Origin: Gluconacetobacter tumulisoli
Lineage (GTDB): Bacteria > Pseudomonadota > Alphaproteobacteria > Acetobacterales > Acetobacteraceae
Reading direction: 5' to 3'
DNA length: 64,000 bases
NCBI RefSeq assembly: GCF_014174155.1
Contig: NZ_JABEQM010000012.1
Location: 1-64,000 of the forward strand
Shown piece by piece: positions 1 to 11,377 of the stretch; the stretch's first letter is position 1, and every line of letters starts with the position of its first letter. The translations under genes were made by a program, and so were the position numbers. Under the pieces are notes generated by a model, which was not told the DNA's origin, did not search any database, and saw only the letters and a program-made list of their open reading frames with translations.

Positions 1-146
1 ACCATGTTCTCGCTCGCGATCAGCTCGATCCCCTCGCGCTGGCGCACAAGCTCCCCGCCGATCATCGCCGCAACATCGGGATCGCGCTCGGCAAGCGTCG
101 ATCGGAAAAAGTCGGTTCTCTGGGGGTCGATGGGGGCAATTGACAT
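1..146 (-). CDS. glyA: Serine hydroxymethyltransferase, N-terminal fragment
   Basis: The gene runs off the left edge, so only the first 48 codons are present. They translate to a protein beginning [14 protein letters not shown] and continuing through [15 protein letters not shown] to the segment ELIASENMV, which is the highly conserved N-terminal block of SHMT (family form xELIASENxxS). The enzyme is cytosolic, uses pyridoxal phosphate, and interconverts serine plus tetrahydrofolate with glycine plus 5,10-methylene-THF. The PLP lysine lies outside the window. The start is the ATG preceded by the purine-rich GGAAGAC. It is transcribed away from the catabolic block that follows. The identification rests on the N-terminal signature only, but that signature is distinctive. 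Confidence 0.88.
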
Positions 147-903
147 TCTGGTCTTCCTACTGGGAGCAATGAGTCCCGCCACGCTGAAGTGATGTGCCGG
201 TTATCCTGATCGTCGATGCAACAGGGGTATCAAAGTGGTGTGTCGAGAACCGATCTACCGAACAGGCAAATGAGCCATCTTCAAAAAACTGGAATTATCC
301 CACACTGATACAGTGTCCTCCTGAGTCCGAACGCCATTGTTTTGGCGAATTTGTCAGACATTGGTCGGCAGGCGGCACACCTTCTCTGGATCAGCAATCG
401 CCATCGTTTCGAATCTTGCACAGATCCAAGTCAAGAAAACGATTTCGCGATTGGATTCATGGCGTGATGATAACGGCCCTCCTGCGTCAAGCACCGCACA
501 TTTCTCGTGCAAGCTGACTAAGGAGATTGGCGTTTCTTTGATTGGATGCTGTCGTCCGTGCCTTGTTCGAATGCGACATCCCGTCGAACTTTGTCGCTCC
601 CCTTTTGCTGCAGCGTTTCCGCAGGGCGCCTGGCAGGCCTGCTGTCGTCCGAAGCCATGCGCATCTTTCCGCCGAATAACATGGACACCGGCAAGCCCTG
701 CGGACGACGGTCCATATGGATCTTGCCGTGGTCGGTGATGCCCGGATGAGAGGCTGTGGCCGTCCCTCTCCTGGGCGCGGATTCCGTCGCCCGGCACATT
801 GTGCACATAAAAAATACAATATGGTTGACTCCTTCCATGACGTATGCCACGGATTGAGCGTAATGATGCGGAAGCAGGCATCTCAGTCGGCAATGCGGGA
901 GTA
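147..903. other. Intergenic region between glyA and the gntR-type gene
   Basis: I see no convincing gene here. The reading frames open on both strands have no family signature, poor start signals and mutually overlap. The stretch must hold the glyA promoter (minus strand) and the promoter of the catabolic cluster (plus strand). Near the right end, at about 794-804, lies the near-palindrome GCACATTGTGC, followed by the AT-rich run ATAAAAAATACAAT. This would be a reasonable operator and -10 neighbourhood for a GntR autoregulator, but that is inference only. A decayed gene fragment cannot be excluded. Confidence 0.5.
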
Positions 904-1623
904 ATGCGATTGAAGGTCGGCAAAGGTAATCTGTACGATGATCTCAGGCGTCAGATCCTCACGATGGAGCTCGATCCCGATCAAGACCTCGATGAGGTGA
1001 TCCTCAGCGAACGTTACGGCTTGTCGAGAACCCCTGTCCGAGACGTATTTCGTCGTCTGGCGGGAGAAGGCTATCTGGACATCAAGGAAAATAAGGGAGC
1101 CCGCGTCGCCCCGATGAATCACGCGACGCTGCGCAACTTCTTTCTTGTGGCACCGATGATTTACGCCGCGGTTGGACGTCTGGCCGTTCAGAACTTCAAG
1201 GCAGATCAACTCGAAGAGTTGGCCAGGTGTCAGGAGCGCTTCCGCGCGGCGAGCGAGGATGCAGACGTTACCGCGATGGTTCTGGAAAATAATCGTTTCC
1301 ATGAAATCATCGGAGAGATGTCGGGGAACGTCTATCTACGCCCCAGCCTGAACCGTCTCTTGATCGATCATGCCCGTATAGGAAACACGTTCTATCGTCC
1401 GCAGAGTAAGGAAATGACGCTGAGACTCCGGCAGTCGGTGGAACATCATGATGGCTTTATCTCGGCCATCGCCGCAAGGGACGAGCAGACTGTCGTCGAC
1501 CTGGTGTTCGACCATTGGGAACTCTCACGCGATACTATGGAAATGTACATTGCCCCGCAGGCAATGCAGGCCGACGCCTTGGTTGACGGACCAACAAGCC
1601 TCTTGGTGGAGAAGATATCGTGA
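904..1623 (+). CDS. GntR family transcriptional regulator, FCD subfamily
   Basis: The 239-residue product has an N-terminal winged helix-turn-helix: LYDDLRRQIL, then ILSERYGLSRTPVRDVFRRL, the classic GntR recognition helix (SRTPVRxAxxRL), followed by the wing LDIKENKGARVAP. The remaining ~150 residues are all-helical and fit an FCD ligand-binding domain (for example RFHEIIGEMSGN and the terminal HH-DGFISAIAARD segment that carries metal-binding histidines in this family). FCD regulators usually bind organic acids or amino acids and repress the adjacent catabolic genes. Its stop codon overlaps the start of the DapA-family gene by four bases, so it is co-transcribed with the cluster. The start is uncertain: an in-frame ATG 60 bases upstream (844) is also possible, but the chosen start gives the usual short lead before the HTH. 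Confidence 0.85.
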   Translation: MRLKVGKGNLYDDLRRQILTMELDPDQDLDEVILSERYGLSRTPVRDVFRRLAGEGYLDIKENKGARVAPMNHATLRNFFLVAPMIYAAVGRLAVQNFKADQLEELARCQERFRAASEDADVTAMVLENNRFHEIIGEMSGNVYLRPSLNRLLIDHARIGNTFYRPQSKEMTLRLRQSVEHHDGFISAIAARDEQTVVDLVFDHWELSRDTMEMYIAPQAMQADALVDGPTSLLVEKIS

Positions 1624-2531
1624 AATTCGAAGGTATTTATACCCCGGCCATAACGCCGCTGACGCCTGGCGGCGAGATCGATAAAAGCGCGTTCGCCGAG
1701 GTGCTGGAATCGTTGATCGACGCGAAGGTGCATGGAATCATTATCGGAGGTTCTACAGGCGAATACTACGCTCATACACCGCAGGAGCGGCTGGATCTCG
1801 CCGCCTGCGCGAAGGACGTGATTGGCTCCCGCACTGCGCTGGTCGTTGGAACAGGCGCAACGCGCACGGAGGATTCTGTCGCATATGCGAAAAGTGCCAA
1901 GGAGATTGGTGCGGATGCGATCCTGGTGACATCGCCCCCTTACGCGCTTCCGACCCAAAGTGAAAATGCTGCCCACGCGTTGAAGATCGATCGGGCAGCC
2001 GGGCTGCCCATCATGCTGTACAACTACCCGGCCCGCATGGGTGTCTGCATGGAGACGGAATATTTTGATATCGTCGGACAATCCCGCAACGTCGTTGCGA
2101 TCAAGGAGAGTTCAGGCGACATGAGCCGCGTTCACCTGCTGGCCTGCAAATATCCCGGCATCGGGCTTTCCTGCGGGTGGGACGACCAGGCGCTCGAGTT
2201 CTTTGCCTGGGGTGCCAGGAGCTGGGTGTGTGCCGGATCGAACTTCATCCCGCATGAGCATATCGCCCTTTATGAAGCGTGCGTTGTCGAAAAGAACTTC
2301 GACAAGGGCAGGAAGATCATGGGCGCGATGATGCCGCTCATGAATTTCCTGGACGCCGGAAAATTCGTGCAATCGATCAAATTCGGATGTGAGGTGGCGG
2401 GATTGCCGGCAGGACCGGTACGGGCCCCCTTGGGGCCCCTCGACGCCGAGGAGCAGGATGCCCTCCGTACCATCATAGCGGACCTCAAGCACGCAGTGGC
2501 CAAGATTACCGCAGGGTCGGCAAGTGAGTGA
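1620..2531 (+). CDS. Dihydrodipicolinate synthase (DapA) family lyase/aldolase
   Basis: A 303-residue class I (Schiff-base) aldolase of the DapA/N-acetylneuraminate lyase superfamily. The GGSTGE motif is at residues 43-48, the catalytic tyrosine is in LYNYP (Y134), and the Schiff-base lysine is in VVAIKESSGD (K162). The family acts on 2-oxo acids or cyclic imines. Members include DapA, NanA, 5-dehydro-4-deoxyglucarate dehydratase and the pyrroline-hydroxycarboxylate deaminase of hydroxyproline catabolism. A biosynthetic DapA role is unlikely, because the gene sits between a GntR regulator and an aldehyde dehydrogenase. Initiation is at GTG within a GTGA overlap with the regulator, and the 3' end overlaps the next gene by eight bases, so translation is coupled. 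The substrate cannot be read from the sequence. Confidence 0.85.
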   Translation: MKFEGIYTPAITPLTPGGEIDKSAFAEVLESLIDAKVHGIIIGGSTGEYYAHTPQERLDLAACAKDVIGSRTALVVGTGATRTEDSVAYAKSAKEIGADAILVTSPPYALPTQSENAAHALKIDRAAGLPIMLYNYPARMGVCMETEYFDIVGQSRNVVAIKESSGDMSRVHLLACKYPGIGLSCGWDDQALEFFAWGARSWVCAGSNFIPHEHIALYEACVVEKNFDKGRKIMGAMMPLMNFLDAGKFVQSIKFGCEVAGLPAGPVRAPLGPLDAEEQDALRTIIADLKHAVAKITAGSASE

Positions 2532-4017
2532 GCTCCTCACCGGCCCGGAATATGCCGCAATTGCCCGGGTAATGTCGTATCCGGCCGGCGCCTTCATCGA
2601 TGGTGCCTTCCGGCCTGCCAGGTCGGGCAACGTCTTCGATACCATCAACCCGGCGACAGGCCAGGTTGTCGCTGCGGTGGCGGCGTGCGACAGCCACGAT
2701 GTGGATGACGCCGTCGAGGCGGCGAAGGCCGCTTTTGAAGGGGGGGAATGGCGCCTCCGGGCACCGGCGGAGCGGAAGGCCGTTCTGCTGAAGTTCGCCG
2801 ATCTTCTGCATGAGAATCGGCATCAACTGGCGGTTCTGGAAAGTCTCGAAAGCGGGAAACCGGTTCGGGAATGTCAAACCATAGATGTGCCGGAAGCCAT
2901 CAATACAATTCGGTGGCATGCCGAACTGATCGACAAGATTTACGACAGCACCGCTCCGGTCGGGGGCGCCGCGCTGGCGTTGGTCGTGCGCGAACCAATC
3001 GGCGTTGTGGGCTGCGTGCTGCCCTGGAATTTCCCGCTGCTGATGCTGGCCTGGAAGGCTGGACCAGCCCTCGCCGCGGGGTGTTCCGTTGTCCTGAAGC
3101 CGGCAGAGCAAACGTCACTGACCAGCCTGCGTGCGGCAGAACTCGCATTTGAAGCCGGGGTGCCGGCAGGCGTCTTCAATGTTGTTACCGGCACCGGTCG
3201 TGAGGTGGGCGAACCGATAGGTCTCCATCAGCATATCGCAATGGTGAGCTTCACCGGTTCGACAACCACCGGACGACGCTTTTTACGCTATGCCGCGGAT
3301 TCAAATTTGAAGCGTGTGGTGCTGGAGTGCGGCGGCAAGAACCCGGCGGTCGTTCTCGAGGATGCCGACGATTTACGGGGCGTGGCAGAGCATGTGGTCA
3401 ATGGCGCGTTCTGGAACATGGGCGAAAATTGCTCGGCCACCTCGCGGCTGATTGTCCATCATTCACTCAAGGATGAAATTTTGCGGCATGTCGGCGCAGC
3501 CCTGCGCGAGTGGAAGATGGGGGATCCGCTCGATCCCGAAAACCGCCTTGGCGCCCTGGTGAGCAAGGATCATTTTTCGAAGGTGGAATCCTATCTCGAT
3601 CATATTGCCCGGGAAAATTTCGCCGTCGTATACGGTGGCCACGCCGTGGACGGAATCTATGTCGAGCCAACGGTCGTCGATGGCGTAGACAGTGCAGATC
3701 GGCTTTTCCAGGAGGAAATATTCGGGCCGATATTATCCGTAACAACGTTCGACACGCCAGAGGAGGCAGTGGCTCTGGCGAATGACACTGTTTATGGCTT
3801 GGCTGCCTCCGTCTATACGGGAAATATTCGAAACGCGATAATGGTCGCTCGCGAGATTCGGGCCGGAATCGTAACAGTGAATTGCTACGGGGAAGGTGAC
3901 GTGACGACCCCGTTCGGAGGGTATAAGGAATCCGGATTCGGTGGCCGTGACAAGTCAATTCACGCTCATGACCAATATACCGAGCTAAAGACCATCTGGT
4001 TTGACGTTTCGAAGTGA
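2524..4017 (+). CDS. NAD(P)-dependent aldehyde dehydrogenase
   Basis: A 497-residue ALDH with the full catalytic set: N169 in VLPWNFP, K192 in VLKPAEQ, the glycine motif FTGSTTTG, general base E268 in VLECGGKNP, nucleophile C303 in NMGENCSATS, and the late EEIFGPILSV motif. It oxidises an aldehyde to the acid in the cytosol. The closest impression is the PuuC/betaine-aldehyde class rather than methylmalonate-semialdehyde or succinate-semialdehyde types, but the substrate is not deducible. It starts at GTG inside the end of the DapA-family gene and lies 20 bases before the FAD oxidoreductase gene. The likely job is to oxidise an aldehyde produced either by the FAD enzyme or by the DapA-family deaminase/aldolase. 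Confidence 0.9.
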   Translation: MSELLTGPEYAAIARVMSYPAGAFIDGAFRPARSGNVFDTINPATGQVVAAVAACDSHDVDDAVEAAKAAFEGGEWRLRAPAERKAVLLKFADLLHENRHQLAVLESLESGKPVRECQTIDVPEAINTIRWHAELIDKIYDSTAPVGGAALALVVREPIGVVGCVLPWNFPLLMLAWKAGPALAAGCSVVLKPAEQTSLTSLRAAELAFEAGVPAGVFNVVTGTGREVGEPIGLHQHIAMVSFTGSTTTGRRFLRYAADSNLKRVVLECGGKNPAVVLEDADDLRGVAEHVVNGAFWNMGENCSATSRLIVHHSLKDEILRHVGAALREWKMGDPLDPENRLGALVSKDHFSKVESYLDHIARENFAVVYGGHAVDGIYVEPTVVDGVDSADRLFQEEIFGPILSVTTFDTPEEAVALANDTVYGLAASVYTGNIRNAIMVAREIRAGIVTVNCYGEGDVTTPFGGYKESGFGGRDKSIHAHDQYTELKTIWFDVSK

Positions 4018-4037
4018 CGGATTGACGGCCCGCGCGA

Positions 4038-5384
4038 ATGGCAACTCATCGTATTCAAAAACTCCCGGTTGATACGGGCGTGTCGGGCTGGGAAGCACTC
4101 AGCGCGAGAACCTTTCCGGTGCGGCCGCTTTCGGGTGACGTAAATGCGGACTGGTTGATCATTGGCGCGGGCTTCGCCGGCCTGTCGGCAGCGAGGCGTC
4201 TGACCCAACTTCGTCCCCATGACAAGATTGTCGTTCTCGAGGCAGGCGAAGTGGCTAAGGGGCCTGCGGGCCGGAACTCCGGCTTCATGATTGATGTGCC
4301 GCACAATCTGTCGTCCGGTCAGTACTCGGTGGCTGACGCTGCGGCCACTCGGCAGGAGATCCGGCAGAATCGTTTCGCGATTCAATTCGCTGCCGATTCC
4401 GCGCTCGAATATGGGATGAGTTCGGAGACATTCGACCCGAGCGGCAAGATCAATGCGGCTGCAACCAGGCGGGGCTTTGCTCTCAACGAGGATTACGCGC
4501 GTTCATTGGGTGGCATCGGCGAGCACTACGAGATGCTGGATGCCAAGCAGATGCGTGACATAACAGGAACGGATTATTACGATTCCGGTCTATATACGCC
4601 AGGATGCACGGTGATACAGCCTGCGGATTATATTCACGCGCTCGCAGGTGGCCTCAGTGAAAAGATTTCTCTTTTCGAGCATTCGCCGGTCATCGAACTT
4701 GGCCGCACGGGCCAAATCTGGCGGGCGCGTTCTACACGTGGAACCGTGTCTGCGCCTAAAGTTATCGTTGCCGTCAACGGGTTTATTCAGGAGTTTGGAT
4801 TTTTTCGCGGTCGTCTGATGCATATTTTTACCTATGCGTCCATGACCGCGCCCTTTACGGCGGATGAGGCTGGGCGGCATGGTACCGGTCGTCCACGATG
4901 GGCATTGCTGCCCGCCGATCCTATGGGTGCGACCGTCCGAAAGATTACGAGCCAGGGGCAATCGCGGATCGTGATCCGTACGCGTTTTACTTACGATCCG
5001 AAAATGCAGGTGTCGGACGACAGGGTGATGCGAATTGCGCGGCAGCAGAAACGATCATTCGCCGCCCGTTTTAAGGAGTTGGGTGATATACCAGTCGAAT
5101 ATAGCTGGGCTGGGCGTCTGTGCCTTAGCCGAAATCACGTGCCCGCATTCGGGGAAGTCGAAGAAAATCTCTATTCAGCCTGCTGCGAGAATGGTCTCGG
5201 TACGGTGAAAAGTACCTTGGCGGGAGTCATGGCGGCCGACCTGGCGGCCGGTGTGGCGTCACCTCAGCTGAACGCCTTCGAAGACCAGCCGATGCCTAGT
5301 CGGCTGCCTCCGGAACCCATGGGGTGGCTCGGCGCCAGCGTCGTGATCAAATGGCAGGAATGGCGGGCGGGCCGGGAAAGATAG
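4038..5384 (+). CDS. FAD-dependent oxidoreductase, DAO/gamma-glutamylputrescine oxidase-like
   Basis: A 448-residue flavoprotein with the Rossmann dinucleotide motif IIGAGFAGLSAA (GAGFAG at 43-48) ending in the acidic E68 of VVLEAG. It is followed by the GRNSGFM segment, which is typical of the DAO branch containing PuuB and related amine or N-methyl amino acid oxidases. The C-terminal part has the SAGxL-like YSWAGRLCLSRNHVPAFG and the ACCENGLGTVKSTLAG FAD-binding segment. No signal peptide is visible, so it should be cytosolic. The family oxidises a C-N bond, releasing an imine or aldehyde plus amine, which fits the neighbouring aldehyde dehydrogenase. Its substrate is unknown. Confidence 0.85.
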   Translation: MATHRIQKLPVDTGVSGWEALSARTFPVRPLSGDVNADWLIIGAGFAGLSAARRLTQLRPHDKIVVLEAGEVAKGPAGRNSGFMIDVPHNLSSGQYSVADAAATRQEIRQNRFAIQFAADSALEYGMSSETFDPSGKINAAATRRGFALNEDYARSLGGIGEHYEMLDAKQMRDITGTDYYDSGLYTPGCTVIQPADYIHALAGGLSEKISLFEHSPVIELGRTGQIWRARSTRGTVSAPKVIVAVNGFIQEFGFFRGRLMHIFTYASMTAPFTADEAGRHGTGRPRWALLPADPMGATVRKITSQGQSRIVIRTRFTYDPKMQVSDDRVMRIARQQKRSFAARFKELGDIPVEYSWAGRLCLSRNHVPAFGEVEENLYSACCENGLGTVKSTLAGVMAADLAAGVASPQLNAFEDQPMPSRLPPEPMGWLGASVVIKWQEWRAGRER

Positions 5385-5597
5385 ACATCCTCGCACCCTC
5401 TCCTGATAGGATTGCTGCCTGTTCGAGGAATGTGATGGTGTGACGGTCGGATCGCCTCCATGCACGTGGGCTCGATGGCCTGGGGCTGAAGTTGAAGAAG
5501 GCCGGAAGCCAACACGCATAACTAATCGTATCGATATCGTTATTAAACCTGCTTAATCGCCCTCTCTATCTGCCTGTGACTTCGGAGAACTGATTGC

Positions 5598-6929
5598 ATG
5601 AATGAAGTGTCCGGTCATGAAGGTGCGGAAGTATCCTGCTCTTTCGAACATCTGCCCGCAGGACGTCTACACTATCTCGCCGCCATAAGCGTCTTCGGGG
5701 GGGTCGTAAGCGACGGATATGCCATCGGCAGCATCGGGGCTGTCTTGCCAACTGCGACGACGGCACTGGGGGCAAGCGTCTGGGACGTTGGAGCCATGGG
5801 AAGCGGCACTCTGTTTGGCCTCTTTTCCGGCAGTGTGATCATCGGCGCCGCTGCGGATCGTTTTGGGCGGAAGCCATTGCTCTGTCTTGGAATGGCGTTG
5901 GCGATGCTGGTCTCGCTTTTGCAGGGCATGGTGACGTCCAGCTTTGAATTGGTCATTTTGCGATATCTTTTGGGGGTCTCGCTCGCGGCAGACTATGTCG
6001 CGGGCAGTTGCTACCAGATTGAATTCGCGCGTGCTTCGAATCGCGGGCATTTGCTGGGCGCCATGATGTTGTTCTGGAGCTTCGGTTTTGCGTTCGCATT
6101 CCAGGCCGGTTATCTTCTGTGTTCAGGCGGTCCGGATGGTTGGCGTTGGTGCCTCATGTTGGGGGCGCTGCCCGCCGGCGCCACGTGCGCGCTGCGGGCC
6201 TGGTTGCCGGAGTCCCCTGTGTGGCTACATGCCCGTGCGAGGACGGAAGCTGCTCTGCGGATCGTGAAACGTCATTTTCCCCGGCATGATGTGATTTTTC
6301 CCGCGATGCCGCGCCCTGATGAGGGCATCGTGGTGAACAATTCCCTTTTGTCGCCGAAGATCAGACGCAGACTTATGGTGGCGATTGTCATTCTCCTGGG
6401 GCAGTTGGTTCCCTACTTTCTTGTGGGTACGTTTCTTCTGAACATACTGGCCGAGTTGGGAATTCGAAGCCCGTACATAGGAGGATTGATTTATACCTTT
6501 TTCGTGGTCGTGGGTTCCGTCCTCGGTTTCTTCATTGTCGAACGCATGTCGCGGCGTAGGTTCCTCATCCTGACATTTCTTGTTTGTGGGATGAGTTTAT
6601 GTCTGATGTCCTCCGGTATTCCGTTTACACCGGTCGTGTTGCTTGCTCTATTCAGCGTGTTCGCGCTTACTCTCTCCGCAGCCAGCTGCATGCAGTATGT
6701 TTATTTTGCGGAATTGTTTCCTGTTGTGATCCGGGCATCCGCGCAGGGAATGGCGCAGTCCACCAGCCGTATATGTGTTTCCCTTACGACTTTTGGTATT
6801 CCCTATATAAGCCAATTGGTTGGTATAAACCACGTGTTGCAGATGACAGCGGTATGGCTTACGGCCGCCGGCCTCATATGCTGGGCTTATGCGCCGGAAA
6901 CGCGGGATGCTACCCTCCGGGCATCATAG
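5598..6929 (+). CDS. MFS transporter (sugar porter / aromatic-acid:H+ symporter-like)
   Basis: A 443-residue inner-membrane carrier with about twelve hydrophobic segments. The first helix has the DGYAIGSIGAVLP start typical of organic-acid MFS symporters. The loop between helices 2 and 3 carries the MFS signature ADRFGRKP, and the second half has a related VERMSRRRF loop. A 213-base gap separates it from the FAD enzyme gene. That gap contains an AT-rich stretch (TATCGATATCGTTATTAAAC) which may be a separate promoter. By position it probably imports the substrate of the cluster. As an alternative, it could export a product. Confidence 0.85.
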   Translation: MNEVSGHEGAEVSCSFEHLPAGRLHYLAAISVFGGVVSDGYAIGSIGAVLPTATTALGASVWDVGAMGSGTLFGLFSGSVIIGAAADRFGRKPLLCLGMALAMLVSLLQGMVTSSFELVILRYLLGVSLAADYVAGSCYQIEFARASNRGHLLGAMMLFWSFGFAFAFQAGYLLCSGGPDGWRWCLMLGALPAGATCALRAWLPESPVWLHARARTEAALRIVKRHFPRHDVIFPAMPRPDEGIVVNNSLLSPKIRRRLMVAIVILLGQLVPYFLVGTFLLNILAELGIRSPYIGGLIYTFFVVVGSVLGFFIVERMSRRRFLILTFLVCGMSLCLMSSGIPFTPVVLLALFSVFALTLSAASCMQYVYFAELFPVVIRASAQGMAQSTSRICVSLTTFGIPYISQLVGINHVLQMTAVWLTAAGLICWAYAPETRDATLRAS

Positions 6930-7215
6930 CAATGCAAGAGGATTTCATTGAGGGATGAACATCGGCTCATTTTGAATTCGGCGTGATCTCTTGCAACCAT
7001 GATGTGGCGGCGATCGGTAAAACGCCGATGCATATTCTTTCGTCGTTGCCGCCAAATTCAATGGTCCGGATCCCCATGCACGGTTCGCCGAAGCTTTCGC
7101 GCTTCGAGGGGTTGCTTTTGCGGAATTGGACATTCAGGCGGCCGACATATTATGGTCCTTGATTTCACCCGTTATGGTGGCTGGATACTTCCTTTGAACA
7201 ACACGGTAAAAGAAG

Positions 7216-7833
7216 ATGTCATTACGATCTTCAGATATTGCGGCCGTTCTGACCGCAGCCGAGGCCTCGGTCCACGCCGGAGGTGGTTCCGCCGCGGCAT
7301 TGGCTGCGGCTGATCGGATATTCACAGGGTCGAGGACAGGATCCGGCCTGTCCGTATCCGTGGACCCGGCTCGCTTACCTGTGTGTCGTTATTTCGACGC
7401 AGCAATTGCACGTGCAGGCGCGCATCCCGGTATCAGCGGCCGCCTTGCGGAAGCCGTTGCCGCAGTTGAGCCGCGTCTGAACTGGAGAACCCGCCCGGGC
7501 GCGCAAGGGGCTGCGTTTCTCGAAGGCCATGCAAATGCGATTATTGTTGGCCCAGGTGGACTTGAAGAAAGGAACGACATTTTAATCGGCGTGAGCCTTG
7601 TGGCGCCAGGCACGCTCTATCCGGATCATCACCATCCGCCCGAAGAAGTCTATGTCGTACTGTCGGACGGCGAGTGGCGGCAGGGAACCGGACCATGGCA
7701 TGCCCCAGGGACGGGAGGGATCGTGTATAATCCGCCCAATATCGTCCATGCGATGCGGTCCGGGCAGGATCCGCTGCTTGCGCTATGGTGTTTGTGGATC
7801 GCATCGAATGACGCCGCATTGGCGGCACCATGA
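7216..7833 (+). CDS. DddQ-like cupin lyase (DMSP lyase family protein)
   Basis: A 205-residue protein with a helical N-terminal half and a C-terminal cupin barrel of the DMSP lyase family. The motif LYPDHHHPPEEVY supplies Y135, H138, H140, E144 and Y146, and PPNIVHAM supplies H178. As I recall the Ruegeria DddQ structure, its active site uses Tyr120, His123, His125, Glu129, Tyr131 and His163. The spacing here is identical for all six. DddQ cleaves dimethylsulfoniopropionate to acrylate and DMS using a bound metal. Many relatives in this superfamily have other, undefined substrates. The acrylate genes that often accompany DMSP lyases are not seen here, so the natural substrate may be a different onium or amino acid. 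The start is supported by AAAAGAAG just upstream. Confidence 0.72.
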   Translation: MSLRSSDIAAVLTAAEASVHAGGGSAAALAAADRIFTGSRTGSGLSVSVDPARLPVCRYFDAAIARAGAHPGISGRLAEAVAAVEPRLNWRTRPGAQGAAFLEGHANAIIVGPGGLEERNDILIGVSLVAPGTLYPDHHHPPEEVYVVLSDGEWRQGTGPWHAPGTGGIVYNPPNIVHAMRSGQDPLLALWCLWIASNDAALAAP

Positions 7834-8313
7834 CGGTCATGGATGGAGTTCGGATTTCCAGCACCCCTGTGCGATCTGCGCAGATCATTCAATGCGCCAG
7901 GATGGGGCTGACGCGATAAACGCCGTATCGCATCCGCTCGTTTGTCCGATCAAAGTAATCGTTTATTCACATCTATGAGATTCGTGTGAAGAATCTGGTT
8001 TAAAATTCGCCCCGTTGGCGATCCGATGTGCTTTTGCAGCGTCGATAGAAGCCCACGCAGTCTGCTCTGGCTCATCTGGTTCGATATTGTATGCGTTATT
8101 CCTGTGCAACGCGGACGCTGTCGGCGGCGTTTGTTTGCATATGCAAGGCAGGGATCGAAAACCGCACCGCGTCGGAGCGATCCGGCGGCCCGAGCGTCAC
8201 ACGGTACGTCGCCGGGCGGCATATGCTTGTGGATTTGCAACGGCTCGACAGATTTGTCTGTTCCCCGTCATCATGCCTGTCGTACCGCGTCGTTCCGGAG
8301 GGAAGAAATCGTC
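7834..8313. other. Gene-free junction between the catabolic block and the conserved region
   Basis: About 480 bases without a credible gene. Open frames on both strands lack family motifs and start signals. Base composition rises from the AT-richer style of the catabolic block (for example the run ATCAAAGTAATCGTTTATTC near 7950) to the GC-rich style of the downstream genes, so this may be the right border of an acquired segment. I found no integrase, tRNA or obvious direct repeat marking that border. Confidence 0.45.
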
Positions 8314-10061: not shown

Positions 10062-11159
10062 TCATGCGGGACGATAGCGCGCCAGCCAGTGCGCATAGGG
10101 CGCCGGCAGGGTCCAGGCCGCGTCCGCCCGCCCCAGCGCCCGGGCCGCCGCATAGGGCCAGTGGGGGTTTTCCAGCAGCGGACGGCCCAGCGTCACCATG
10201 TCCAGCGCCCCGTCGCGGATCAGCGCGTCGGCCTGGTCGGGCCGGTCGATATACCAGCTGGTGCTGGCCGGCAGGCCGCCTTCCGCCCGGACGCGGCGTG
10301 CGACGGGGGCCAGGAAGGCCGGCCCCCACGGGATATGGGTGTCCGGGGTCGAGAACCCGACGCTGACATCGATGAAATCCAGCCCGGCCGCGCGGAAGCG
10401 GCGGACCAGCTCGATGGATTCATCCAGCGTCTCGGCGTCCCGGCCGTCATATTCGATGACGCCCAGTCGCGCGCTCAGCGGCCGGTCCTCGGGCCAGATC
10501 TCACGCACCGCCGCCAGCGTTTCCAGCAGGAAGCGGCCCCGGTTGTCGAAGCTGCCGCCATAGGAATCGTCGCGGCGGTTGGAATGGGGCGACAGGAAGT
10601 TCTGCGCCAGATAGCCATGGGCAAAATGCAGCATCAGCCAGCCGAACCCGGCATCGCGGGCGCGGCGGGCGGCGGCCACGAAATCCGTCCGGACGCGCAC
10701 GATGTCGTCCTGCGTCATCGCCTGCGGGATCTTCGGCAGGTTCGCGCCGAAGGCGATGGCCGAGGGCGCGATCGTGGGCCAGCCGCGCGGATCGTCCGCC
10801 GCGATATGGTCGTCGCCCTCCCACGGGCGGTTGGCGCTGGCCTTGCGCCCGGCATGACCGATCTGGATGCCCGGCACCGCGCCGGCGTCCTCGATCGACC
10901 GGGCGATGGCGGCGAAGGCGTCCGCCTGCGCGTCGTTCCACAGGCCGGCGCAGCCTGGCGTGATCCGCCCCTCGGGCGAAACGGCGGTGGCCTCGATCAC
11001 CACCAGTCCTGCGCCGCCGCGTGCCAGGCCGGCGTAATGCACGGCATGCCAGTCGCCCGGAACCCCGTCGGTCGCGACATACTGGCACATCGGCGACACC
11101 GCGATGCGGTTGCGCAGGGTACGGCCCTTCAGGGCCATGGGGGTGAACAGGTCAGGCAT
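10062..11159 (-). CDS. NADH:flavin oxidoreductase (Old Yellow Enzyme, YqjM-like)
   Basis: A 365-residue FMN-dependent TIM-barrel ene-reductase. It opens with LFTPMALKGRTLRNRIAVSPMCQY, where the cysteine in SPMCQY is the redox-tuning Cys of the thermophilic-like/YqjM OYE class. Further motifs are GLVVIEATAVSPEGR, the GIQIGHAGRKAS active-site histidine segment, LLHFAHGYLAQNFLSP and the C-terminal DMVTLGRPLL. These enzymes reduce activated C=C bonds of enones or act in oxidative stress defence, in the cytosol. The start is set by a GGAG six bases upstream of the ATG. Longer in-frame extensions lack support. It is transcribed towards the quinoprotein gene. Confidence 0.9.
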   Translation of the reverse strand: MPDLFTPMALKGRTLRNRIAVSPMCQYVATDGVPGDWHAVHYAGLARGGAGLVVIEATAVSPEGRITPGCAGLWNDAQADAFAAIARSIEDAGAVPGIQIGHAGRKASANRPWEGDDHIAADDPRGWPTIAPSAIAFGANLPKIPQAMTQDDIVRVRTDFVAAARRARDAGFGWLMLHFAHGYLAQNFLSPHSNRRDDSYGGSFDNRGRFLLETLAAVREIWPEDRPLSARLGVIEYDGRDAETLDESIELVRRFRAAGLDFIDVSVGFSTPDTHIPWGPAFLAPVARRVRAEGGLPASTSWYIDRPDQADALIRDGALDMVTLGRPLLENPHWPYAAARALGRADAAWTLPAPYAHWLARYRPA

Positions 11160-11377
11160 CGGACGCTCCATGGCTTGTATCGCTGTTGCGTGTCCTGCGC
11201 CGGCGGTTCCGCCTCGGGGCCGGGCAGCGGAGACGCATGTTCGGCCAGACGGCGCGCGCGGGAAAGGGGGCATCGCCGGGGAGCCGCCTTGCGCCGCCCG
11301 AACGCCTTGCCTAAGAGGCTTGGGCCGCCCCCATGCACCGCCGGATGCCAGCGGGACGGCGCGTGTAAGGAGCGATC

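Follow-up and report, generated by a model that had tools for sequence, protein, structure and literature searches.

The cupin gene at 7216-7833 of the window, a stretch of 64,000 nucleotides of Gluconacetobacter tumulisoli DNA, encodes a genuine and intact member of a known protein family and is part of an acquired operon of a known type. Its sequence places it in a distinct subfamily of the DMSP-lyase-like cupins, of which we found no solved or named member. We consider it moderately probable that this cupin takes part in breaking down hydroxyproline and betaines of the proline type (stachydrine and hydroxyproline betaines). By homology, it is best read as a metal-dependent enzyme that would abstract an alpha-proton, and not as a DMSP lyase. 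The new element is that one subfamily, largely terrestrial, is tied to the catabolism of proline betaines and hydroxyproline; we did not find this stated in the papers that our searches returned or that we consulted.

The product matched the Pfam family PF16867 (DMSP_lyase) with 164.6 bits (E 2.1e-48; cut-off 27), and no NCBIfam family was found for it at E<=0.001. A PDB sequence search returned DMSP lyases, namely 5cu1 (E 4.6e-10), 4b29 (E 1.3e-6), and the DddQ chains 5jso (E 0.0053) and 4la2 (E 0.0057), and DddK was also among the matches. A preliminary description of the window had claimed that the product keeps six active-site residues of DddQ at the same spacing and had proposed both the Pfam search and an alignment of these residues. 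In a profile alignment built from 27 relatives, Y135, H138, H140, E144, Y146, and H178 fell on Y120, H123, H125, E129, Y131, and H163 of DddQ 4la2 (chain index). The residues and the spacing are thus correct, and the likeness is real rather than due to chance. The position of Y131 is Ala in DddQ 4la3. The AlphaFold2 model of the cupin, from an alignment of 13 sequences, was confident (mean pLDDT 88.7), and the cupin was the sole PF16867 match of its genome (E<=0.001). The positions of the gene, its active-site codons, and its neighbors are shown in Table 1.

Table 1. Features of the acquired region in the window.
Feature	Position	Strand	Basis or remark
Low-GC island	1..8000		56.9% GC, against 68.9% for 8001-64000; the cupin is the last gene; the left end is the contig end
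GntR/FCD regulator, HypR-like	844..1623	+	Pfam; 73% identical to the GntR of the Rhizobium cluster
DHDPS-superfamily protein, probable Pyr4H2C deaminase (HypD type)	1620..2531	+	Pfam; 73% identical to Rhizobium; role as in the available text of PMC4113996
Aldehyde dehydrogenase, probable alpha-ketoglutarate semialdehyde dehydrogenase	2524..4017	+	Pfam; 72% identical to Rhizobium; available text of PMC4113996
FAD-dependent DAO-family oxidase, probable cis-4-hydroxy-D-proline oxidase	4038..5384	+	Pfam; 70% identical to Rhizobium; available text of PMC4113996
MFS transporter (Sugar_tr/MFS_1)	5598..6929	+	Pfam
Spacer between MFS and cupin	6930..7215	+	286 bp
Cupin	7216..7833	+	205 aa; ATG start
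Y135 codon	7618-7620	+	metal/tyrosine site
H138 codon	7627-7629	+	metal/tyrosine site
H140 codon	7633-7635	+	metal/tyrosine site
E144 codon	7645-7647	+	metal/tyrosine site
Y146 codon	7651-7653	+	metal/tyrosine site
H178 codon	7747-7749	+	metal/tyrosine site

All six residues (Y-H-H-E-Y-H) were kept in 57 of the 61 aligned PF16867 rows, including rows outside the clade of the solved lyases. Therefore, they mark the family and do not identify a DMSP lyase. The alignment left out L011, which gave no hit, L092, which has an in-frame stop, and L058, which repeats the gene of L110. A 60-row tree was built from this alignment after removal of L033. The window cupin fell into a 30-row clade (support 100/97), and the solved lyases 5cu1, 4b29, and 4la2 formed a separate 4-row clade with L009 (100/98). 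These three were the characterised lyases of the tree; DddL, DddW, DddK, and DddY were not entered as such. The window cupin carries a signature of W90, H105, N107, E117, R119, D121, and G125. At these positions the three solved lyases have F/F/Y (105), C/W/Y (107), F (117), S/T/S (119), and S/S/Q (121), and DddQ 4la2 reads Y, Y, F, S, and Q. The full signature was present in 24 of the 61 family rows. A second alignment added 13 sequences from bacteria of the window's family, of which 4 matched it exactly; position 119 is E in L170, which belongs to the betaine-linked subclade described below. The signature is therefore typical rather than absolute. In an extended tree with 13 added family sequences, from which L180 (93 aa) was excluded, this betaine-linked subclade comprised 15 rows (100/98). 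The window cupin lay outside it and was joined to it weakly (87/74). Its sister, L167, had no betaine-type neighbors, but this gene lies at a contig end with only one side visible.

These results bear on the reading that the cupin cleaves DMSP, or a closely similar beta-onium acid (for instance beta-alanine betaine), to DMS or trimethylamine and acrylate. The family and the six catalytic residues match DddQ and favor it. However, the clade is separate from that of the three solved lyases, the five residues H105, N107, E117, R119, and D121 differ from those of DddQ 4la2, and no acrylate-handling genes were named by Pfam or NCBIfam among the six operon genes at 844-7833. The last point had been made in the preliminary description, which also suggested that the substrate may be something other than DMSP; the former holds, and the latter is made probable by the tree, the signature residues, and the gene context. 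On the same three grounds, DMSP lyase was lowered as the main reading.

We compared the genes upstream of the cupin with known hydroxyproline genes. The GntR, DHDPS, ALDH, and DAO genes of the window were 70-73% identical to a block of the same order on plasmid pRle248e of R. leguminosarum 248, where the block goes on with genes for an ABC importer of betaines and an epimerase of 4-hydroxyproline (580 bits in NCBIfam, above cut-off). According to the available text of PMC4113996, members of the DAAO, DHDPS, and ALDH superfamilies make up the known route through cis-4-hydroxy-D-proline, and according to that of PMC5343134 and PMC6608401, the GntR-family HypR regulates the hydroxyproline route. 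The Rhizobium-like block, the known route, and its regulation make a hydroxyproline module the most likely identity of the window operon, which the preliminary description had not recognized as such. The DAO-family oxidase had no PDB match at E<=1e-10, and none of 425 matching plasmid records covered 80% of the window block in one place. Promoter-like (7127-7156) and terminator-like matches of the region were about as many as in shuffles, and a search for a ProC-like remnant in the spacer gave no match.

The operon lies in a low-GC island at the contig end (Table 1). Elsewhere on the contig, the minimum GC over 86 overlapping 7-kb segments was 65.5%, and the cupin gene has 60.8% GC, with 56.3% at third positions. 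The cupin, a DAO ortholog (E<=1e-60), and a StcD-like OYE (E<=1e-200) were each absent from all 13 congeneric genomes examined, and no phage match was found at E<=1e-3. The best explanation is that the cupin was acquired together with the GntR-DHDPS-ALDH-DAO-MFS hydroxyproline module. The earlier claim of an intact-site cupin beside an acquired catabolic operon is supported. The OYE (68% identity), TetR (56% identity), and Rieske (65% identity) genes of the window genome lie on contig C9, not beside the cupin. Third-position GC was 88% for this OYE and 86% for this Rieske gene, and therefore they are probably outside the same recent acquisition event. Three other gene regions were seen in this genome. 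An N-terminal fragment at 3-182 (-), running off the contig start beside the island, resembles serine hydroxymethyltransferase by eye. An OYE-family gene at 10062-11273 (-), just outside the island, shares 29% identity with the StcD-like OYE over 345 residues. A second set of Rieske, reductase, and OYE (46%) genes, possibly for glycine betaine, is found at G000:C5 (L090:8848-14276).

Related cupins in the window's bacterial family were found in three further arrangements. In genome G501, the order is DHDPS-ALDH-DAO (the hydroxyproline module)-ABC-ProC-like-cupin-GntR; in G668, Rieske-reductase-MR_MLE-MFS-ProC-like-cupin; and in G448, Rieske-cupin-OYE-TetR-ABC. The MFS protein of G668, encoded two genes before the cupin, was 66% identical to that of the window. 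The MR_MLE protein of G668 matched PDB 4e8g/4izg/4j1o with 591 bits, entries that we take to be the hydroxyproline-betaine epimerase HpbD. The Rieske protein matched, among others, PDB 4qup, 'Monoxygenase; demethylase'. A reading of the window cupin as a chance neighbor of the module was lowered on the shared low-GC island and these arrangements.

The linkage was also examined in rhizobial plasmids. The annotated plasmids examined, from Rhizobium, Sinorhizobium, and Shinella, encode a related cupin directly 3' of an NADH:flavin oxidoreductase (OYE) of 678 aa. The clusters of Rhizobium and Shinella are extended by genes for ETF, for the glutathione-dependent oxidation of formaldehyde, for a ProC-like reductase, and for a Rieske oxygenase and its reductase, together with ABC importers of betaines. 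The cluster of S. meliloti ml47 is smaller (substrate-binding protein, TetR, OYE, and cupin), with 46 bases between the OYE, probable stcD, and the cupin. In R. leguminosarum 248, the related cupin is part of a supercluster with the hydroxyproline module, HypE, Rieske, StcD-like OYE, ETF, and formaldehyde genes. On pSymB of S. meliloti 1021, a single OYE place was found at E<=1e-100 (1108030-1110063), adjoining a cupin. The available text of PMC12239276 places stcD, the gene for N-methylproline demethylase, on pSymB in region B307. From this and the sole OYE place, we infer that the OYE at 1108030-1110063 is most likely StcD. A 2690-base OYE-cupin query was covered to at least 80% in one place by 202 plasmid records; the OYE alone makes up 76% of this query, and some of these records may therefore lack a portion of the cupin.

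R. johnstonii 3841, of which we take J391 to be a derivative, carries such a cupin (RL_RS35500) beside a StcD-type NADH:flavin oxidoreductase. In the available texts of PMC11306096 and PMC10989797, R. leguminosarum J391 serves as the host in which DMSP from MTHB is measured, and in that of PMC10686828 as the host of a DMSOP-cleavage library screen. This use argues against a DMSP lyase, as it suggests little background lyase activity, although the conditions there may not induce the gene. In favor of an onium lyase, the betaine importers of the relatives could import such compounds, and trimethylamine dehydrogenase is a distant relative of the OYE (E 2e-41). Taken with the tree and the signature residues, DMSP or onium cleavage appears quite unlikely.

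An alternative is that the cupin is an alpha-carbon epimerase, in which a metal-bound betaine or N-methylated hydroxyproline would lose and regain its C2 proton via the two conserved tyrosines, and trans-L compounds would be passed to the D-specific oxidase of the operon. The route through cis-4-hydroxy-D-proline, on which enzymes of the operon's DAAO, DHDPS, and ALDH types act, fits this reading, as does the position of the cupin after the transporter in the window and in G501, where R. leguminosarum 248 has the hydroxyproline epimerase. The chemistry would be the first half of the lyase reaction, and either tyrosine is a possible base in DddK according to the available text of PMC12582016. 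Alma1, a DMSP lyase, is a member of the aspartate racemase superfamily. On the other hand, R. leguminosarum 248 has HypE, G668 has the HpbD ortholog beside its cupin, and the small OYE-cupin cluster of S. meliloti has no evident need for a D-isomer. HypE had no match on the window's contig (C12), but the sole Pro_racemase gene of the window genome, on contig C25, was 51% identical to HypE. With HypE on C25 and the HpbD ortholog in G668, the proposal that the cupin replaces HypE in its place was lowered, and we judge epimerisation unlikely.

We counted marker genes around the cupin loci (tblastn, E<=1e-30, 60% query cover). Rieske, OYE, or DAO genes were present in 10 of the 13 betaine-subclade loci, within the stretch available, whereas among 26 other clade loci only the window carried any of them (1/26). 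The stretches scanned were unequal, from about 6 to 35 kb, with 20 kb for the window. Among the 13 subclade loci, five come from related, hand-picked plasmids of rhizobia and lack independence; leaving these out gives 5/8. The subclade loci without these markers were L035 (DddP-like M24 only), L098, and L099. L179, L036, L033, L092, and L180 stood outside the 13-versus-26 count, with no Rieske, OYE, or DAO near them, and L073 and L147 were scanned outside both tree and count. A ProC-like gene was present in 7/13 subclade loci, and MLD2 in 1/13 and in two further clusters; the MLD2 family includes known Pyr2C reductases according to the available text of PMC4113996. DddP-like M24 genes lay with or close to the cupin in 5/13 subclade loci. 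Three of these genes, in or close to cupin clusters (L074:27357-28637, L035:1541-2782, and L097:10558-11853), were scanned and scored 364-424 bits, which does not reach the cut-off for DddP (600); a DddP-like M24 had no match in the window genome, and none was annotated in the 3841 cluster. Outside the subclade, the near relative L026 has a carnitine-dehydrogenase-like gene (396 bits, cut-off 414), BKACE, and TauD as neighbors and is also near a DoeA-like M24 (405 bits, cut-off 613), and L027 has a DAO-GcvT fusion and MR_MLE. These two neighborhoods are suggestive. The other neighbors examined, which include TRAP transporter, PhyH, FTHFS, 2-hydroxyacid dehydrogenase, and kinases, had no shared theme.

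In weighing the best explanation, we counted in its favor the order and identity of the hydroxyproline module, the shared low-GC island, the arrangements in G501, G668, and G448, the OYE-cupin records, the single OYE place next to the cupin on pSymB, the 10/13 versus 1/26 loci, the ProC-like gene in 7/13 subclade loci, and C-N bond formation by DddK. Counted against it were the weak join to the subclade, the sister L167 without such neighbors, the relatedness of five subclade loci, the 25 of 26 other clade loci without marker genes, the lack of both an OYE and a ProC-like gene at the window locus, and the 286-bp gap between MFS and cupin.

Co-occurrence with the OYE was also examined across the 385 class genomes. 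For the whole PF16867 family, the OYE was found in 19/39 genomes with the family and 23/346 without it (odds ratio 13, p 1e-10), and an unrelated ring-cleavage dioxygenase control (PF00775) in 24/39 and 90/346 (odds ratio 4.6). For the 13 genomes with the window clade only, the OYE was found in 5/13 (p 0.008) and the control in 10/13 (p 0.0005). Genome co-occurrence was set aside as proof for this clade because the control was as strong as the OYE, and the betaine argument therefore rests on adjacency. PF16867 members outside the window clade co-occurred strongly with the StcD-like OYE (14/26 versus 28/359 of the 385 genomes).

Several rhizobial clusters link the cupin to formaldehyde-releasing demethylases and formaldehyde oxidation genes, which would fit another role in betaine demethylation, such as the handling of formaldehyde hemiaminals or a ligand-binding or accessory function. 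A second family member, cupinB, lies between the ETF and formaldehyde genes in Rhizobium (L074:13039-13734 and L075:22646-23338) and was not counted as a separate locus. It keeps most of the clade signature, its catalytic residues are lost (FHQRFF), and it is likely a pseudoenzyme. A non-catalytic role may therefore exist in the same cluster. Against such a role for the window protein, the full catalytic set is present in it and in all other aligned clade rows except cupinB, and we hold this role to be improbable.

To our knowledge, neither the stachydrine route nor the 4-hydroxyproline route has a step that requires such a cupin. The available text of PMC12582016 describes for DddK a substrate carboxylate on the metal, Tyr64 as the base with Tyr122 as a possible substitute, and beta-elimination; DddK also makes C-N bonds by the reversed mechanism, including that between pyrrolidine and acrylate. 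By homology to DddK, the window enzyme is expected to take an alpha-proton from a carboxylate bound to the metal. A divalent metal would be bound through H138, H140, E144, and H178, the substrate carboxylate would sit on the metal, and Y146 (or Y135) would take the alpha-proton, as proposed for DddK. We prefer a reaction in which a 3-substituted N-methylproline or proline betaine, such as a 3-hydroxy form, undergoes beta-elimination. This would give a cyclic imino acid, which the recurrent ProC-like (or MLD2) reductase could reduce to N-methylproline, and StcD would convert the latter to proline. As an exact assignment, this elimination followed by reduction for StcD is tentative and rather doubtful. 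It is possible, although we would not count on it, that the subfamily represents a new enzyme of proline-betaine breakdown, abstracting an alpha-proton (in an elimination or epimerisation) from a proline-derived carboxylate. The marine DddQ-type lyases would then be a side branch recruited from betaine-degrading ancestors. DddP may have a similar origin, given the DddP-like M24 genes at the subclade loci.

The distribution of the family was also examined. At E<=1e-3, the window cupin had matches in 259 plasmid records, of which 135 are from Rhizobium and 83 from Sinorhizobium. Matches were also found in 39/385 genomes of the class (E<=1e-10) and 24/397 genomes of its own bacterial family (E<=1e-12). 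The preliminary description had found an intact site outside the sea unexpected; this did not hold, since the many relatives in soil and plant bacteria show that the PF16867 family is not marine-only. Close copies of the R. leguminosarum gene were found by megablast in 104 Rhizobium plasmid records. Among 60 listed of these, the gene is called 'dimethylsulfoniopropionate lyase' in 26 and 'transcriptional regulator' in 5, it has no name in 9, and 20 are unannotated. Among the papers that our searches returned, we found no title or abstract opening that links DMSP-lyase-like cupins to betaines, and the word 'cupin' is absent from the main text of PMC4113996. If the betaine assignment holds, the label 'dimethylsulfoniopropionate lyase' is misleading, and the DMS potential inferred from it on land would be overstated. 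An orphan family would also gain a substrate class that is directly testable in S. meliloti and R. johnstonii 3841, and an origin of the marine DMSP lyases would be suggested.

Compared with known systems, the window block resembles the trans-4-hydroxy-L-proline module (HypR/HypD/HypH/HypO) of the available texts of PMC4113996, PMC5343134, and PMC6608401. The DAO, DHDPS, and ALDH genes and the GntR regulator are likewise in one block, but an epimerase is absent from this block and a cupin is added. The cupin of R. leguminosarum 248 (WP_020047348, named 'dimethylsulfoniopropionate lyase') is 53% identical to that of the window over 145 residues, with the same signature and site, and its supercluster has the same hydroxyproline module. 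In the window, by contrast, the cupin comes after the module and MFS, and the Rieske gene and StcD-like flavoprotein gene of a proline-betaine (stachydrine) cluster are both on C9. With the DddQ/DddK/DddL/DddW cupin lyases, the window cupin shares the PF16867 match and the metal/tyrosine set, at a spacing identical to that of DddQ. It differs from DddQ-type lyases in the residues before the metal motif, in its hydroxyproline neighbors, and in its clade, which is not that of 5cu1, 4b29, and 4la2, and none of the six genes was named as an acrylate or DMSP gene. The title of Lei et al. 2018 already refers to 'lyase-like' cupins whose function is unknown. The window cupin is like these as a family member without an assigned substrate, and, as far as that title allows a comparison, it differs in that gene order ties its subfamily to proline-betaine and hydroxyproline catabolism.
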